Shown here piece by piece: positions 54,309-63,027 of a stretch of 64,000 nt of DNA. A program made the translations under genes and the position numbers. The stretch lies in assembly GCA_023249375.1 (NCBI GenBank), contig JAHFCT010000015.1, positions 7,040-71,039 on the forward strand, read 5' to 3'. Source of the stretch: Gemmatimonadota bacterium. Its GTDB lineage: Bacteria; Gemmatimonadota; Gemmatimonadetes; Gemmatimonadales; Gemmatimonadaceae. Below the pieces are notes generated by a model. It did not search any database, had not been told where the DNA came from, and was given only the letters and a program-made list of their open reading frames with translations. Positions within the stretch are counted from its first letter, which is position 1. Each line of letters begins with the position of its first letter.

Positions 54309-55259
54309 CTACTTCTTCTTCTTTTCCCTGACGCACCAGTTCTGCGGCACGCGCAGCATCTCGTGCCACTTGCCGCTCGCGCGCGCGAGCAACACGAGCT
54401 CGTTGGTGCCGGCATAGCGCCACGACTCGAGAAAGACCTCATCCGTGCCGTCGCCCGTCAGGTCGAGGTGGTCGAGCATGCGCTGGAACTCCACCGCGCG
54501 CGCCTCGCCGCTCTCGAGATGACGATAGCTCACCTGATAGCCCTTGCCGTCGATGTCATCGCCGAACACCAGGAAGTGCGTCGTGTGCCCCGCGCCGGGG
54601 CCGGTGTCGCCGGCGTTCGCATCCACCTGACTGGCGACGAGCGTCGGCTTGCTGCCGCCGGATACGTGCATCGCACGCGCGCTGAACGATGCGGTGTCGA
54701 TGTCGGTGGAGTCGAGCTGCTCGGCTTTCAGCGCCGCGAGGGCGAGGGTACGCGCGGTGGCGGCGAGGTCCTTTGGCGCCGAGACCGCCGCTGCCATACT
54801 CGGGCGCGCCACGCTCAGCGAGAGGAACTCAAAGGCAGGATCGAGCGGCACCGACGTCTTGAGCGCCACCGCCGCCATCGGGCGCACTTCACGGCAGCCG
54901 GGCAGGTCGTATAGCGGCTCGCTGTCCGGCTCCCACATGCGGCGCGTGACGGTCACCGTGCCCGCCGGCTGCCCATCGCGATAGACCGGATATTGCGAGC
55001 CGGGCTGGAAGTACGTGGAGTCGAGGCGGCGCCAGTCGGACTCCGGCAGGATGATTGGCTTCACCGCGCCGTCGATGATGGCGGCAATCGGCACGAGCCG
55101 CGTGGAGTCGGTGGTCCCGAACACCTGGAAGACAAGCGGCGGCTTGGTGGCGACGTCAAACGAGGGCGGCGGCGGCCGGTCGTCGGCGGACTCCTTCTTC
55201 GCCTTGTCGCATCCCGCCGCGAGGGCTAGGATGCTCAGCATGAGTGCGGATCGGCGCAT
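54309..55259 (-). CDS. lipoprotein of unknown function with FG-GAP-like end
   Basis: 316 residues. ATG 55259 or 55241 gives a lipoprotein signal (MLSILALAAGCDK). The mature protein has no known catalytic motif. The C-terminal part (LDHLDLTGDGTDEVFLESWR, then NELVLLARASGKWHEMLRV) resembles FG-GAP/VCBS-type propeller repeats, in which DLTGDGTDE would bind calcium. It ends in a lysine-rich tail (REKKKK). The 5' end overlaps the start of the nurA-like gene on the other strand. Confidence 0.65.
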   Translation of the reverse strand: MRRSALMLSILALAAGCDKAKKESADDRPPPPSFDVATKPPLVFQVFGTTDSTRLVPIAAIIDGAVKPIILPESDWRRLDSTYFQPGSQYPVYRDGQPAGTVTVTRRMWEPDSEPLYDLPGCREVRPMAAVALKTSVPLDPAFEFLSLSVARPSMAAAVSAPKDLAATARTLALAALKAEQLDSTDIDTASFSARAMHVSGGSKPTLVASQVDANAGDTGPGAGHTTHFLVFGDDIDGKGYQVSYRHLESGEARAVEFQRMLDHLDLTGDGTDEVFLESWRYAGTNELVLLARASGKWHEMLRVPQNWCVREKKKK

Positions 55260-56241
55260 CGGGCCAACGTACCTGCCATCTGGCGGGGCCGCAAGCGTGC
55301 GCGACGCCCTGCGTGCGCTGCGCGGCGCGGGCGCCGCATTGACCGCGTCCGAGCCGGCCCTCGAGTTGCGTCCCGTTGTGGCGGAGCCGCCGCGGCTGCA
55401 GCGCGCCGAGCCGCTCGAAGGCGACGCCGTGCGCGGACGCATCGTGGATGGCGAGCCGATCGCCGGTTTCGTCGCGTTTCTCGATGGCATTCAGGAGAGC
55501 CGCGTGCTGGCGCACTGGCCGGGCGGCATCCCGCTGGTGCACGGCACCGTCGCGGCGACGGTGCGCCGACGCCGCGACCGTACACTCGTCGCCTGGCGCG
55601 ACGACGCCACCCGCGTCGCCCGCACCCTTTTCGTGCCGCGCGCCGCGATTGGTGAGGCCGCATGGACGGCCATCGAGCGCGAATGCGCGGTGCGCGACAC
55701 GCTCGAACCGGGCGAGAGCGGTCCGTGGCACCCGCAGGAACTGACGTCGCGCGCCCTGAGCGCCGTGCAGCGCCGCCGCGAAGAGGCGGAGACGGCGTGC
55801 GCCGCGCTCTGGTGCGCTGACGGCGATGGCCCGCTGCTCGTGGACGGCGGCATCGCGTCGGCCGGCAGCGCCGCGCACTCGCCTCTCGCCATCGGCGTGG
55901 TGAAGTCGCACCGCACGCTCTACGTCGACGGCGATGCGCTGCCACTCGTGCTCGGCCTGCGCGCCGGAGAGCGCACGACGGCGTTCACGGTGAAATCGCC
56001 GCGCCGCGCGCCGGTGGCCAGCTGGTACCTGCGCCTGCGCGACGCTGCCTCACACGACGCGCTGTGGGGCCTCGTGCGCGTTGAGGTCGCGCTTGACGGC
56101 GCGAGCTCTGCACGTGCGGACGAGGTCTCGCGCTGGCTGCTCGCCGAACGATCGCCCGTGTCGCTCCCCGATCCGCGCTGGGGAGCCATGGCGTATGGCG
56201 TTAGGTTGACGGAGGAGTATCTGCGCGCCATCACGCGGTAG
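55240..56241 (+). CDS. nurA: NurA-like nuclease
   Basis: 333 residues from ATG 55240; ATG 55231 is possible. The family shows a bipartite active site and the candidates here are FVAFLDGIQESRVL (Asp82), PLLVDGGIAS (Asp202) and AIGVVKSHRTLYVDGD (Lys222), with SLPDPRWGAMAYGVRL at the C-terminus. This pattern fits NurA 5'-3' exonucleases, which work with the HerA translocase in DNA end resection. The call is supported by the adjacent herA, sbcD and sbcC genes. It is not as clear as the other genes of the cluster; sequence search is needed to fix the family. Confidence 0.7.
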   Translation: MSADRRIGPTYLPSGGAASVRDALRALRGAGAALTASEPALELRPVVAEPPRLQRAEPLEGDAVRGRIVDGEPIAGFVAFLDGIQESRVLAHWPGGIPLVHGTVAATVRRRRDRTLVAWRDDATRVARTLFVPRAAIGEAAWTAIERECAVRDTLEPGESGPWHPQELTSRALSAVQRRREEAETACAALWCADGDGPLLVDGGIASAGSAAHSPLAIGVVKSHRTLYVDGDALPLVLGLRAGERTTAFTVKSPRRAPVASWYLRLRDAASHDALWGLVRVEVALDGASSARADEVSRWLLAERSPVSLPDPRWGAMAYGVRLTEEYLRAITR

Positions 56242-56365
56242 CCGTCGCAGCGGTCGGCCGACTGTCAGCTACGTACACAACCCTCGTCATCGCACCCGAC
56301 GCAATCGTGATCGCCATCCTTCTTCGAAATCCTGAATCCAAATCCGTGATCTCTGTCCAAAATCC

Positions 56366-58312
56366 ATGTCCGTAGGACGCGTTGTCGCAACGGAGCGCCG
56401 TCCCAACACCCCGCACGAATTCCATTTCTGGACCGCGCTTGATGCCCCCGTCGGGATTGGAACGATCGTGCGCGTCGAGGGACCGGCCACGGGTGACGGC
56501 CGGCTCGTCAGCGTGTACGGTGTAGTGGTCGAGGGGTTCTCGTATACCGATCTGCAGACGCCGCTGCACGATGTCATCGGCGCGGACGGCGATCCGGAGC
56601 GCGCGCTGCGCGCACCGACGGATCGCACCGAGATTCGCCTGTACACGGCGCACTCGCTGCGTCACGTCCCCGACGAGCCGCTGCAGCCGGTGCCGATGGG
56701 CATCGTGCATCTCGCCACGGACGACGACGTCGCCGTGGCGCTGCGGATGGACGGCTACCTGAAGGAAGGGCAACGCACAGGCATTCCCATCGGCGTCTAT
56801 CGCTCCGGTGCGATGCAGAGCCCCGTCTATCTTGACGCCGACTTCCTGCTTGGTCCCGAGGCCGCGCACCTCAACATCTCGGGCGTCTCGGGCCTCGCCA
56901 CCAAGACGAGCGCCGTCGAGTGGCTGCTCAGCTCGATCTTCGCGCACTTTCCTGAGCAGAAGGGAAGCGTCGCCGCGGTCTGCTTCAACGTCAAAGGACC
57001 GGATCTCTGCTTTCTCGACCTGCCCGCCGAAAAACTCGACGAGGCCGACCGCGCGCTCTACGACGCAGTCGGCGTTCCCGCCGAACCGTTCCGCGACGTG
57101 GAGTACTACGCGCCATGGACGGCACGCGGCCACGCGCTGGCCACGCTGCGCACCAATGAGGCGCTGTCGCACAACGTCTTTCCGTTGAGCTGGGGGCTGC
57201 GCGAGGTGCTGCAGTACGCCGAGGTGCTGCTCAACAAGGATGACATCGACGCCAAGGCCGACGCGCTCATCGACTTCATTCGCGAACGGGTGGTGAATCA
57301 GGAGTTCTCCGACTCCCTGCTCGACCGCGTGCACACCGTGCGGTCGTTCAGCGACCTCGAGCAGTGGTTTCGCGACGTGCTGCGCGCCATGGAAGGGCGC
57401 AACGCCGAGACCTGGCGCACGCACCACGTGGCGACGATCAGAAAAGTGCGGAACCGGCTGACGAACATCTCCACGCGCTGCCGCGGGCTGGTCACCGACG
57501 ACGGCACGTCCAACGACCTGCCGTTCGGCGCGTTTCGCGACCGCGCGGTGTATGTGATCGACGTCGCGTCGTCCGAGGAAGACGCGCAGGACCTGATCTT
57601 TGCGCGCGTCGTCTCGCAGCTGCGGGAACAGCTCGAGCGCCGCACGCTGGGCGTGGACCACGTGGTCGTCTTCGTGGACGAACTCAACAAGTACGCGCCA
57701 TCCGACGGCCCCGACACGTACGTGCGGCAGATGCTGCTCGATATTGCCGAACGCGGGCGGTATCTGGGGCTCGTGCTCTTTGCGGCGCAACAGTTCCGGT
57801 CGCAGGTGCATCGCCGCGTCGTGGGCAACTGCGGCACCGCGCTCTTCGGCCGCATGGACCTGGAGGAGCTCGCCACGCCCGGATACGCGACGCTCGCCCC
57901 CGCCACGCGCATCAAGCTGAGCACGCTCGACAAAGGGCAGCTGATGGTGCGGCATCCGCACTTTGCGCAGCCGGTCTTCGTGCGATTCCCGCGTCCGGCC
58001 GTGCTGAGCGGGCGCGAAGGCGTCGAGCGGTTCCCCGCCGAGCCGGAGCCGTCGCTCGAGTCCGCCGTCACGCGGTCGCTGCGCAAGCTCGACCCGTCGG
58101 TCACCCTCGAGTGGGTGAAGCAGGCCACCGTCGCCGCCTCCGAGGATGACGTGCTGCGGGCCCGCAACCGAACGCTGCAGGCCAGGCCCGACGACGTGAA
58201 GGCGTACTTCCGCGCGCAGTTCCGAGGGCGAGCGGCGTCGGAAGCCATTCCGTCGCGTCCGGCGCCATTGCCGCTGGCGGGTGCCGACAGCAACGACCCG
58301 TACGCGTTCTGA
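56366..58312 (+). CDS. herA: HerA-family ATPase (FtsK/HerA translocase)
   Basis: 648 residues. The N-terminal HAS-barrel-like domain is GRVVATERRPNTPHEFHFWT to about residue 60. The P-loop is variant: GVSGLATKTSAVEW, with K180 but Thr where the final glycine is normal. Walker B is VVVFVDELNKYAPSDG (Asp438, Glu439), followed by LFAAQQFRSQVHRRVVGNCG and ALFGRMDLEELATPGYATL, the sensor and arginine-finger region of HerA. It forms a hexameric ring that pumps DNA to the NurA nuclease. It starts 125 bases after nurA; the spacer has no gene but repeats of 'aatcc'. Confidence 0.82.
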   Translation: MSVGRVVATERRPNTPHEFHFWTALDAPVGIGTIVRVEGPATGDGRLVSVYGVVVEGFSYTDLQTPLHDVIGADGDPERALRAPTDRTEIRLYTAHSLRHVPDEPLQPVPMGIVHLATDDDVAVALRMDGYLKEGQRTGIPIGVYRSGAMQSPVYLDADFLLGPEAAHLNISGVSGLATKTSAVEWLLSSIFAHFPEQKGSVAAVCFNVKGPDLCFLDLPAEKLDEADRALYDAVGVPAEPFRDVEYYAPWTARGHALATLRTNEALSHNVFPLSWGLREVLQYAEVLLNKDDIDAKADALIDFIRERVVNQEFSDSLLDRVHTVRSFSDLEQWFRDVLRAMEGRNAETWRTHHVATIRKVRNRLTNISTRCRGLVTDDGTSNDLPFGAFRDRAVYVIDVASSEEDAQDLIFARVVSQLREQLERRTLGVDHVVVFVDELNKYAPSDGPDTYVRQMLLDIAERGRYLGLVLFAAQQFRSQVHRRVVGNCGTALFGRMDLEELATPGYATLAPATRIKLSTLDKGQLMVRHPHFAQPVFVRFPRPAVLSGREGVERFPAEPEPSLESAVTRSLRKLDPSVTLEWVKQATVAASEDDVLRARNRTLQARPDDVKAYFRAQFRGRAASEAIPSRPAPLPLAGADSNDPYAF

Positions 58313-58409
58313 TCGGCGACCGCCTCCTGTATGCCCTGCGCCGTCTCCGAAATAGTCTGACGTTGCCGCCCCCCCGCACGTAGATTCCCCCTCTCTACGC
58401 CCGCGCCCC

Positions 58410-59612
58410 GTGCGACTCGTCCACCTCTCCGACTTCCACCTCGGTTTCCGGCAGTTCCAGCGCGTCACGCCCACTGGAAAAAACCAGCGCGAGGCGGACG
58501 TGGCGCAGTCGTTCACCCGAGCGGTGGACAAGGTGATTGCGCTCGCCCCGGATGTGGTGCTCATCGGCGGCGACGTCTTTCACACGGTGCGGCCGACCAA
58601 CCCGGCCATCCTGCACGCCTTCCGGCAGTTCTCGCGGCTGCGCGCCGAACTGCCCAACGCGATCGTCGTCATCGTCGCCGGCAATCACGACATGCCGCGC
58701 TCGAGCGAGACCACGTGCATCCTGCGGCTCTTTGAACCGCTGAACTTTCATATCGCCGACAGCGAACCGCGGCGCCTGCATTTTCCCGAATACGAGCTGT
58801 CGATCCTCGCCGTGCCCGATCTCCCGCCCGGCAGCGTCGACCTGTCGCCCGACGAAAGCGTCAAGCACAACGTGCTGCTGCTCCACGGCGAGGTCGAGGG
58901 CGCGCTCCCCGACGGCGTGCGCGAAGACGAACGCGCCTCCATGCCCATTCCGGCATCCGCGGTGTCGCACGAGCGGTGGGACTACGTCGCGCTCGGCCAT
59001 TACCACGTGTATCGCAAGGTCGGGCCCAACGCGTACTACTGCGGTTCGCTCGACTACACGAGCACCAATGCATGGGGCGAGTACCTCGAGGAGCGGTCGG
59101 CCAAGCTGCCGGGCAAGGGACTCATCGAGCGCGATCTCGCGACGGGCAAGCAGACGTTTCACTGGCTCCCCGTCACGCGAAAGATCATCGACCTGCCGCC
59201 GCTCGCCGGCCGCGGCAAGTCGGCGGTGGACCTGGACGAGATGATCGCCGATGCGGTGGAGAAGTGCCCGGACGACGGCATCGACGGCAAAGTGGTGCGT
59301 CTCGTCGCGCGTGACGTGCCGCGCCACGTGGCGCGCGAACTCGATCACCAGCGGCTGCGCGAATATCAACGGCGCGCGCTCCACTTTGTGCTGGATACGC
59401 GGCGCCCGAGCGTGGTGCGCACCGCCGCCGCCGAGAGCGGTGCGCCCGGCAAGCGGCCGTCGCTCGCCGACACGCTGCGCGAGGCGCTGCGCAGCCGCCT
59501 CCTCACCAGCGACATCGACCGCGACCGCCTCGTGGCGCTCGGCGAGCACTACCTGCGCGAAGCCGAGCAGGAGATGTCGGCGCGCGGCATCGGCGAGGAA
59601 GGCGAGTCGTGA
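58410..59612 (+). CDS. sbcD: SbcD/Mre11 nuclease
   Basis: 400 residues from GTG. The metallophosphatase motifs are complete: LSDFHLGF (D-x-H), GGDVFHTVRP, GNHDMPRSSE, LLHGEVEG and LGHYHVYRK. SbcD/Mre11 cuts DNA ends with SbcC/Rad50. Its C-terminus (residues 300-400) has the capping and SbcC-binding helix (REALRSRLLTSDIDRDRL). It overlaps the sbcC start (GTGA). A weak promoter-like pair CTGACG-N18-TAGATT lies upstream (58357-58386). Confidence 0.95.
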   Translation: MRLVHLSDFHLGFRQFQRVTPTGKNQREADVAQSFTRAVDKVIALAPDVVLIGGDVFHTVRPTNPAILHAFRQFSRLRAELPNAIVVIVAGNHDMPRSSETTCILRLFEPLNFHIADSEPRRLHFPEYELSILAVPDLPPGSVDLSPDESVKHNVLLLHGEVEGALPDGVREDERASMPIPASAVSHERWDYVALGHYHVYRKVGPNAYYCGSLDYTSTNAWGEYLEERSAKLPGKGLIERDLATGKQTFHWLPVTRKIIDLPPLAGRGKSAVDLDEMIADAVEKCPDDGIDGKVVRLVARDVPRHVARELDHQRLREYQRRALHFVLDTRRPSVVRTAAAESGAPGKRPSLADTLREALRSRLLTSDIDRDRLVALGEHYLREAEQEMSARGIGEEGES

Positions 59613-62068
59613 GGCTCTCCCGGCTTCGCTTGGTCAACTTCCGCCAGCACGCGGACAGCACGCTGCTGTTCGACAGCGGGCTCACCGGCATCATCGGCCC
59701 CAACGGATCGGGCAAGACGACGATTCTCGAGGCCATCAAGTGGGCACTGTACGGCGGCGACGCGACGCGCGGGACCGTCGATTCCATTCGCTTTGCCCGG
59801 GCGAGTGCGCGTGCACCGGTGCGCATCGAACTCGATTTTGAGTTGGGCGGACATCGCTACCGCCTGGTCCGCGCGCTGACGACGGCCGATCTCTATCTCG
59901 ACGGTGGCGACCGCCCGGTCGCCACGGGCGCATCGGCGGTGACGGATGTCGTGCGACGCCGGCTCGGCATGTCGCTCGACGAGTTCGACAACACGTACTT
60001 CACGGCGCAGAAGCAGCTCGCCGTGATGGCCACGCTCACTGCGGCGGCGCGCGCGCAGTTTCTCTCCCGCGTGCTCGGCTACGAGAAGCTGCGCGCGGCA
60101 CAAGATCTGTGCGACGAGCGCCGCAAGGCGCTGCGCAACGAGAGCAACGGCATGCGCGCCGGCATGCCAGATCCCGACGCGCTGGCGCGCCAGTTTACCG
60201 ATGCCGAGGTGCGCTTGCGCGAAGCGCAGGCGCGTTCGGCGGCGGCCGCGGTAGAGCAGGCGCGTGCCCAGCAGGAGCTGACGGCGCTGCACCCGCGGTG
60301 GGCCGAGGCGCAGCGCGCGCGCGAGGAACTCAAGGGACTCGACGCCGAGCGGCGCGTGCTCGATGCGGAACTCGCGGGGCTCACGCGCACCACGGACAAG
60401 GTCGAGAGCGAACTGCGGCACGTGGCCGATGCGCGCGCGCAGCTCGTGCCGCTCGCCGAGGCGCTGGTGCCGTTCCATCAGGTGGGCGAGGAACTCGCTC
60501 GCCAGCGTGAGCTGGCCGTCTCGGACGGCCGCCGGCAGGCGCTGCAGGAATCGGCCGTCGAACTCGCCACCGAGCTGCAGCGGCTGCGCGAGGGGCGCTC
60601 GCGCCTCGAAAACGCGCCGGCGCTCGAGGAACAACTGACGCTGGAGATGGAGCAGAAGCGTCGCCGTCTCGAGGAGCTGCAGGGCCGGCTCGAGCTGCGC
60701 CGCACCGAGTGGGTGCGCGACCGGCAGGAGGCCGAGACGCGCCGCAACGCGCTGCGCACGCAGTACTCGGAGCTGCGCGACCAGAAGGAGAGACTGCGCG
60801 CCGCGGGCGAAGAAGGGGCGTGCCCCACGTGCAGCCGCCCGCTCGGTGATCACTACCATAGCGTGATCGATTTCCTTGAGACGCAGATCGAGGCGATCAG
60901 CGCCGACGGGCTGTACTATCGGCAGCGCCTCGAGCAGCTCGAAGGGATGCCCGAGGACATCGTGGCGCTCGACGAGGAGCGGCGGCAGGCGATGCAGGAG
61001 GCGAGCGCGCTGGAGCGGAAACTGGCGCGCACGCAGGTGGCGGTGGGCCAGCTCGAGCAGGTGGCGCGCGACCTGTCGCAGAAGGAGCAGCGGCACACAT
61101 CGTTGACAAACGAACTGGTGTCGCTGCCGGGCGGCTATGATCGGGCCAACCACTTGGCGCTTGAAGCGCAGTTCGAACAGCTCGCGGAACTGAGTACGCA
61201 GGCCAACCGGCTCACGACGCAGGTGGAGCGCGAGCCGTCGCTGCGCCGCGAACTCGACTCGACGCAGCGCGCGGTGACGTCGGCGCAGGAAAAGCGCGCG
61301 GCGATCGCGGCGCGCCTCGGGAGCATCGCGCATTCCGAGGAGGAGTACGCGGCGCTCGGCGACACGCACACGCGAGCCGCGAGCGCCGTGCAGGCGGCGG
61401 CGATGACCGTCATGGCGGCCGACGGCGAGGGGCGGCTGGCCGCGTCCGACCGCGAGCGCGTGGTCGATGCGCAGCGCGACCTCGCCGAGCGGCGAGAACG
61501 CATCGAACAGATCGAGGCGGAGAAGCGGCTGCACGACGAGCTCTACCGCGCCTACTCCGACCTGCGCACCGATCTCAACTACCAGATGCGTCCCGAGATC
61601 TCCGAACTGGCGAGCGGATTCCTCTCGTCGCTCACCGACGCGCGCTACAGCGAGCTCGATCTCGACGAGAAGTACCGCATCTCCATTCTCGAGGACGGGG
61701 TGCCGCTCCCCGTGATTTCTGGTGGCGAGGAAGATCTTGCCAACCTTGTGCTGCGACTCGCGATCTCGCAGATGATCGCCGAGCGCAGCGGGCAGCCGTT
61801 CTCGCTGCTCATTCTGGACGAGGTGTTCGGCTCGCTCGATGAGGTGCGGCGTCAGAATGTGATCGGATTGCTGCGCGCGCTGCGCGACCGATTTGACCAG
61901 GTGATCGTGATCACGCACATCGACGACGTGCGCGACGGGCTCGATCAGGTCTTCGTCATCAGCCATGACGAGAAATCGGGTGCATCGCGTGTCACGCGCG
62001 GCGACGACGACGCGGCGCCCGGCGCCGGCGAGCTCCTTGAGGTGGCCGGGGCCGGAGGAGGCGCATGA
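59609..62068 (+). CDS. sbcC: SbcC/Rad50 ATPase
   Basis: 819 residues, shorter than E. coli SbcC (1048) and nearer to archaeal Rad50. It has Walker A GPNGSGKTTILEAIKWALYG (30-38), a long coiled coil, a zinc hook CPTC at C405 and C408, then the returning coil, the ABC signature VISGGEEDLANLVLRLAIS near 705 and Walker B LLILDEVFGSLDEVRRQN. With SbcD it tethers and processes DNA ends. The GTG start overlaps sbcD and its stop overlaps the following GNAT gene (ATGA), so all three are translationally coupled. Confidence 0.95.
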   Translation: MRLSRLRLVNFRQHADSTLLFDSGLTGIIGPNGSGKTTILEAIKWALYGGDATRGTVDSIRFARASARAPVRIELDFELGGHRYRLVRALTTADLYLDGGDRPVATGASAVTDVVRRRLGMSLDEFDNTYFTAQKQLAVMATLTAAARAQFLSRVLGYEKLRAAQDLCDERRKALRNESNGMRAGMPDPDALARQFTDAEVRLREAQARSAAAAVEQARAQQELTALHPRWAEAQRAREELKGLDAERRVLDAELAGLTRTTDKVESELRHVADARAQLVPLAEALVPFHQVGEELARQRELAVSDGRRQALQESAVELATELQRLREGRSRLENAPALEEQLTLEMEQKRRRLEELQGRLELRRTEWVRDRQEAETRRNALRTQYSELRDQKERLRAAGEEGACPTCSRPLGDHYHSVIDFLETQIEAISADGLYYRQRLEQLEGMPEDIVALDEERRQAMQEASALERKLARTQVAVGQLEQVARDLSQKEQRHTSLTNELVSLPGGYDRANHLALEAQFEQLAELSTQANRLTTQVEREPSLRRELDSTQRAVTSAQEKRAAIAARLGSIAHSEEEYAALGDTHTRAASAVQAAAMTVMAADGEGRLAASDRERVVDAQRDLAERRERIEQIEAEKRLHDELYRAYSDLRTDLNYQMRPEISELASGFLSSLTDARYSELDLDEKYRISILEDGVPLPVISGGEEDLANLVLRLAISQMIAERSGQPFSLLILDEVFGSLDEVRRQNVIGLLRALRDRFDQVIVITHIDDVRDGLDQVFVISHDEKSGASRVTRGDDDAAPGAGELLEVAGAGGGA

Positions 62069-63027
62069 GCGCGCTGCCCAAGCCCGGGCCGCGCGGCGTC
62101 CGCGTGCGCGCGCTGCGGCACGACGACATCGGCCCGCTCAACGTGCTTTTTTCGGACGCCTTCTCCGATCGCTATCGCCGCGACGGCTTGGCCGGCGTCC
62201 GCGTGCCGCCGCTGAATCCCCGCATCTGGCGGTATGCCATCGACGACGCCGGTGACGGCGCGATGTGCTGGGTGGACGCCGACGACCGACTGGTGGCGTT
62301 CAACGTAGCGCATCAGTCGGGCATCGAAGGCTGGATGGGTCCGCTCGCCGTGCGTCCCGAGTGGCAGAGTACCGGGCTGGGCCGGAAGATCGTGACGCGC
62401 GGTATCGAGTTTCTGCGCGCGCGCGGCTGCACGGTGATTGGCCTCGAGACGATGCCGCGAACGATGGACAACATCGGATTCTATTCGCGGCTCGGGTTCG
62501 TGCCTGCGCGCATGACGATCACGCTCACGCTCGAGGCGCAGCGCGGGCGCTGCGCGCTGCTCTCGCAGCTCGGCGCCGGCGACACCGACGCGGCGCTGCA
62601 GGCCTGCGCGCGGTTGGTCGAGCGTCTGCAGCCCGGCGTGGACTTCACGCGCGAGTTGCGGCTGACGCGCGAGCTCGGCGTCGGCGACACCGTGCTGCTG
62701 TTCGGGCACGACGGCGTCGAGGGCTTTGCGCTGTGCCACGAGGCGCCGCTCATCGAGGGGCGCGCCAAGGATGAACTGCGGGTGCTCAAGCTTGCGGTGA
62801 GCGACATCACGATGCTGGCGCCGCTGATGGCGGCCGTGGGCGCGTACACGCGCGACTGCAGCCTGCCGCGCGCAGCGGTGCGCGTGCAGGGTGATTACCA
62901 CGATGCGTACCGTTATCTGGTGGCCGCCGGCGCCCGCGTGCGCTGGACCGATCTGCGCATGACGATGGCGGGGAACGAAGAGCGCGTTCCCGCGCGCGGG
63001 ATCGTGCTGTCGAACTGGGAGATTTGA
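62065..63027 (+). CDS. GNAT-family acetyltransferase, possibly with two domains
   Basis: 320 residues. The N-terminal GNAT has the acetyl-CoA motif LAVRPEWQSTGLGRKIVTRG and the following IGLETMPRTMDNIGFYSRLG; the C-terminal 150 residues look like a second GNAT-like or decayed domain. It overlaps sbcC by ATGA, so it is part of the nurA-herA-sbcDC transcript. A role in modifying a protein of the repair complex is possible but speculative. Substrate unknown. Confidence 0.82.
   Translation: MSALPKPGPRGVRVRALRHDDIGPLNVLFSDAFSDRYRRDGLAGVRVPPLNPRIWRYAIDDAGDGAMCWVDADDRLVAFNVAHQSGIEGWMGPLAVRPEWQSTGLGRKIVTRGIEFLRARGCTVIGLETMPRTMDNIGFYSRLGFVPARMTITLTLEAQRGRCALLSQLGAGDTDAALQACARLVERLQPGVDFTRELRLTRELGVGDTVLLFGHDGVEGFALCHEAPLIEGRAKDELRVLKLAVSDITMLAPLMAAVGAYTRDCSLPRAAVRVQGDYHDAYRYLVAAGARVRWTDLRMTMAGNEERVPARGIVLSNWEI

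Follow-up and report, generated by a model that had tools for sequence, protein, structure and literature searches.

The nearest relatives of known structure for NurA and HerA of the locus described here form the NurA-HerA complex of Deinococcus radiodurans (7F6D), which has been described as a resection machine and whose herA-nurA operon is described without mre11-rad50 (PMC9960219). Recent papers describe NurA-HerA as limited to few bacteria, Deinococcus-Thermus among them (PMC9960219), and as likely to have been transferred from archaea (PMC12977600), where herA-mre11-rad50-nurA clusters group the same four functions (PMC2288612). The closest bacterial precedent for a four-gene set is that of Oceanithermus profundus, whose gene order has been given as nurA-hepA-sbcD-sbcC (PMC5448004; Blesa 2017). 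The role of the NurA-HerA pair is disputed. The Thermococcus kodakarensis complex breaks down both DNA strands, a finding taken by its authors as evidence against resection, and it may be antiviral (PMC12977600). In D. radiodurans and Thermus, nurA/herA mutants show modest or even improved resistance to damage (PMC9960219).

We analysed a window (the whole stretch of DNA under study, 64 kb long) taken from a Gemmatimonadota assembly of 120 contigs that is 96% complete. It carries the following five genes:

55240..56241, plus strand: nurA (333 aa, ATG start at 55240), a predicted bacterial-type NurA nuclease with an RNase H fold
56366..58312, plus strand: herA (648 aa), a predicted HerA/FtsK-family ATPase
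58410..59612, plus strand: sbcD (mre11; 400 aa, GTG start), a calcineurin-like phosphoesterase
59609..62068, plus strand: sbcC (rad50; 819 aa, GTG start), an SMC-like ATPase
62065..63027, plus strand: GNAT gene (320 aa), a tandem-GNAT acyltransferase

The positions and strand given for all five genes in a preliminary description of this DNA were confirmed, as were its two overlaps, namely the 4-base GTGA joining sbcD to sbcC and the 4-base ATGA joining sbcC to the GNAT gene. The remaining joints are gaps of 124 bp (nurA-herA) and 97 bp (herA-sbcD), and a single transcript presumably spans the cluster. The start of nurA overlaps, at 55240-55259, the probable start of a divergent gene on the minus strand (54309 to about 55259), whose product has a lipoprotein-like N-terminus.

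The least certain assignment was that of the first gene. Direct HMM scans of Pfam, NCBIfam, PADLOC and PHROGs gave no match to the window NurA, a null result that we do not read as absence of NurA. The Pfam NurA model, PF09376, misses this protein, has no match anywhere in its genome and picks up the NurA of one relative (E 6e-4). Searched as a single sequence, the window protein has D. radiodurans NurA (DrNurA) as its top PDB match at an insignificant E value of 0.027; DrNurA is also the best match for profiles built from 21 relatives (E 4e-4) and from 63 relatives (E 3.9e-6). The AlphaFold model obtained from the 63-row alignment (pLDDT 92) retrieved DrNurA, Thermotoga maritima NurA and SsoNurA first in Foldseek. 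VIA-align gave Z scores of 18.7 against TM1739, the NurA of T. maritima (1zup), 18.5 against DrNurA (7f6d_G), 14.5 against SsoNurA, 13.4 against chain G of TdpAB and at most 9.5 against RNase H folds other than NurA and TdpAB. Among 96 NurA sequences drawn from several phyla and one phage, divergent ones included, residues D82 (in FLDG), E184, D202, K222, R245, E282 and R313 are nearly invariant. In the 63-row profile, K222 is aligned to the lysine at chain position 221 of 7f6d_H, which would be K201 of DrNurA given some 20 extra residues in the construct; loss of K201 abolishes nuclease activity (PMC9960219). Since profile match and predicted fold agree, we regard the assignment of the 55240-56241 product as NurA, first proposed from the letters alone, as settled at the level of sequence and model.

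The other three core genes were also correctly named in the preliminary description. HerA is not detected by Pfam, yet its profile matches D. radiodurans HerA (7f6d_B) across both domains (E 1.2e-56), and the two share a P-loop variant (SGxSGxATKTS; SGVSGLATKTS from residue 172 in the window) and a DELNKYAP Walker B motif (FVDELN from residue 436). The 56366-58312 product is, by these sequence criteria, a Deinococcus-type HerA ATPase. Many family-2 genomes appeared to have a TGA inside HerA; in L049, where this was traced, the match overruns the normal stop codon. SbcD has the motifs DFH (8), GDVF (54), GNHD (91) and GHYH (196), and scores 70.5 against TIGR00619, slightly under the cut-off of 77.65. 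SbcC matches PF13476 (E 2e-22) and has a Walker A motif (GPNGSGKT, 30), a zinc hook (CPTC, 405), a signature motif (SGGE, 704) and a Walker B motif (LILDE, 734). Most of the 67 SbcD and 56 SbcC sequences compared retain these motifs intact. Similarity of SbcC to Lamassu, PbeC and other defence ATPases was dismissed as generic SMC/ABC likeness.

Among solved structures, the nearest relatives of both NurA and HerA are the Deinococcus pair, with the catalytic lysine conserved, although the two NurA proteins share only 15–18% identity and the window has all four genes in one cluster. The archaeal clusters group the same functions, but the fold matches less well to NurA from archaea (Z 9.4–14.5) than to the bacterial proteins (18.5–18.7), and the HerA profile search listed no archaeal HerA chain at E 1. 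The initial idea of an archaeal-style resection machine is not quite right as regards the proteins, NurA and HerA being nearest to the bacterial Deinococcus/Thermotoga type. O. profundus has the same four genes in identical order in a bacterial host; it is a single Thermales species, noted in one passage, whereas the window's set is order-wide, lies in another phylum and includes a GNAT gene (PMC5448004).

The order NurA, HerA, SbcD, SbcC, GNAT was held in 20 of 20 genomes from two families. Across 80 named loci, NurA lies 5' of HerA in 78 of the 79 with room for it, the exception being L132, where the NurA match of the genome is found some 15 kb upstream. SbcD follows HerA in 68 of 69, and SbcC follows SbcD in 57 of 58. 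Chance is excluded as the source of this gene order, which is common to most relatives and not peculiar to the window. NurA and HerA genes overlap by 4 bases or fewer in 22 of 78 relatives' loci. The flanks also recur, with tk, an aminotransferase and Lrp upstream and PTPS downstream, which favours a housekeeping gene set; in Gemmatimonadales these surroundings are chromosomal and constant, in contrast to those of a mobile defence island. The cluster's type of HerA was found in 150 genomes of two families. In other families of the same class, divergent HerA, SbcD, SbcC and NurA are grouped, with the order altered in some. Raw distances of NurA, HerA, SbcD and SbcC correlate more strongly with one another (0.54–0.69) than with those of flanking genes (0.18–0.51).

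Some relatives have HerA-SbcD-SbcC with no recognisable adjoining NurA, among them several f9 genomes. In two family-2 loci (L181:3066-3572 and L180:11942-12499) a protein of 169–186 aa occupies the place of NurA, its gene abutting or overlapping herA; the L181 protein has no Pfam match. The herA-sbcD gap exceeds 700 bp (about 800–1000 bp) in 44 of 73 relatives, an insert absent from the window. We considered the insert as a further repair subunit and dismissed it, as it is mostly a secreted DUF6263-like gene (L085, L078 and other loci of L069-L133).

We then compared the cluster with the usual bacterial end-processing genes. In the genome of the window, the PDDEXK_1 profile (RecB/AddAB/AdnAB nuclease) and the Exonuc_V_gamma profile (RecC) had no matches, and the only two UvrD_C proteins, at about 800 aa each, are too short to be RecB or AddA. 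As judged from these family searches, the genome has no AddAB/RecB/RecC signature, in answer to the question of recBCD, addAB or adnAB raised at the outset. RecR is present. RecJ was not found in the assembly. A gap in the contigs is the probable cause, as the gene is present in all seven congeners and in nearly all relatives (278 of 298 genomes in the phylum sample). Across that sample, a strong PDDEXK_1 match, marking an AddAB-type nuclease, occurs in 28 of the 158 genomes that carry this HerA versus 112 of 140 others (Fisher p 2e-28, a value inflated by the non-independence of related genomes). The anti-correlation tracks order-level splits and is gone inside the family, where a strong PDDEXK_1 match occurs in 3 of the 17 genomes that lack HerA. 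Given this lack of exclusion within the family, and given that all 30 genomes with a divergent HerA also have AddAB-type nucleases (as do the 28 that combine a strong match with the cluster's own HerA), replacement of AddAB by the cluster holds for the order and is not a law.

We consider that the locus is probably a chromosomal, vertically kept operon that processes double-strand DNA ends in the stead of AddAB/RecBCD. The recurrent chromosomal position, the conserved order and the co-divergence of the four genes all favour such a housekeeping role in end processing, for which we infer complex formation, the polarity of resection and the role in vivo. If the proteins work as their D. radiodurans counterparts do, duplex DNA would be driven by a HerA hexamer into a strand-cutting NurA dimer. 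SbcD-SbcC, judging from their families, may first recognise and trim blocked or hairpinned ends, and RecFOR would then load RecA onto the 3' tails so produced. The GNAT protein would most likely be a co-transcribed neighbour outside this mechanism. Counting against end processing by the cluster are the behaviour of the D. radiodurans and Thermus mutants, the two-strand degradation by the T. kodakarensis complex, the relatives with no recognisable NurA beside HerA, and the limits of the anti-correlation with AddAB. In addition, the near-universal presence of RecJ means that a RecQ/RecJ route could do the resection.

In an alternative that we consider unlikely, NurA-HerA and SbcDC would be accessory nucleases with separate jobs, encoded in one operon: SbcDC would cleave hairpins, HerA-NurA would act at forks or chromosome ends, and RecJ-RecFOR would resect. 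Besides the distribution of RecJ and the presence of RecR, this is consistent with the fact that SbcDC alone is common in bacteria and that an unrelated secreted gene often sits within the herA-sbcD gap. Against it, the four genes are kept together across divergent lineages and several phyla despite rearranged order, and their divergence correlates better mutually than with that of their neighbours.

The several phyla were reached by tblastn with HerA, which returned further NurA-HerA-SbcD-SbcC sets in records of Streptomyces, Nonomuraea, Chlorohelix, Sphaerospermopsis and Aulosira. These records come from a plasmid collection, the 11.9-Mb Nonomuraea record being probably a chromosome. In these cyanobacterial, chloroflexotal and actinobacterial sets (L202:5949-12946, L205:5795-12954, L200:5915-13152, L201:6878-14444 and L199) NurA is unannotated; profiles of Gemmatimonadota NurA match the unannotated HerA neighbours in other phyla with E values of about 7e-9 to 6e-19, in a small search space. 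Close to the copy in Streptomyces are TIGR02680/TIGR02678/DUF2397 genes, which we take to be Wadjet-like. NurA-HerA pairs were also seen in Marinitoga camini virus 1 (L203:4927-7632), where SbcDC is missing, and likewise in a phage-labelled fecal contig of 8.9 kb (L204).

Sir2-HerA, DUF4297-HerA and TdpAB are thought to destroy foreign DNA, and the cluster might similarly be an anti-invader nuclease in which HerA-NurA and SbcCD destroy foreign linear DNA of phages or plasmids. We judge this quite improbable for the Gemmatimonadales locus. Occurrence of related sets in plasmid-collection records of Actinomycetota, Chloroflexota and Cyanobacteriota and the surroundings of the Streptomyces copy speak in its favour, as does the match of the NurA fold to TdpAB, a phage-defence complex in which a NurA-like fold is paired with a HerA-like motor. 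The TdpAB chain (8WFD) is more distant in fold than DrNurA (Z 13.4 versus 18.5), and the HerA profile search gave no match to a TdpAB chain at E 1. Cleavage of both strands by the T. kodakarensis complex also fits destruction of DNA (PMC12977600), whereas the nearest solved relatives of both window proteins are those of Deinococcus. PADLOC matches of HerA are weak (best 1.7e-7 for mad8; 6.8e-5 for HerA), the Gemmatimonadales cluster has a recurrent chromosomal neighbourhood, and its HerA, spread through two families, lacks the patchiness of defence islands. Because of the plasmid-borne relatives, the defence interpretation stays alive for other lineages. Sir2-HerA or DUF4297-HerA defence does not fit the cluster: the partner of this HerA has a NurA fold, and neither Sir2 nor DUF4297 had a Pfam match in the cluster or in the flanking proteins scanned.

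Wherever the locus extends far enough (49 of 49), the GNAT gene comes directly after sbcC, overlapping by 4 bases or fewer in 41, and its model (pLDDT 94) has an intact tandem-GNAT fold with two-domain GNATs as best matches. On these grounds the protein might acetylate and regulate the complex, an addition compatible with any of the above functions. No GNAT gene was found, however, next to the divergent clusters, whether in the same class or in other phyla, and its distances correlate weakly with those of NurA (0.29) and SbcD (0.23), though at 0.61 with those of SbcC. Given this absence from divergent clusters and the looser co-divergence of the GNAT, acetylation as an extra control, suggested in the preliminary description, is very unlikely, and any role of the GNAT in resection control is a guess.

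The bacterial four-gene order has already been reported, in O. profundus, and further bacterial clusters may have been mentioned before. What is new here is the breadth of the cluster, the evidence that its unannotated first gene encodes NurA, and the link to the absence of AddAB. The cluster predicts which unannotated neighbours of HerA in other phyla are NurA proteins. Returning to end processing, we tentatively propose that HerA-NurA-SbcCD may be the main processor of double-strand ends in whole bacterial lineages, in several phyla, without RecBCD, AddAB or AdnAB; if so, bacteria would have one more presynaptic system in addition to RecQ-RecJ and the RecBCD/AddAB family. Because the cluster is order-wide and stands largely in place of AddAB, gene deletion in these bacteria could show whether HerA-NurA resects ends or destroys foreign DNA.
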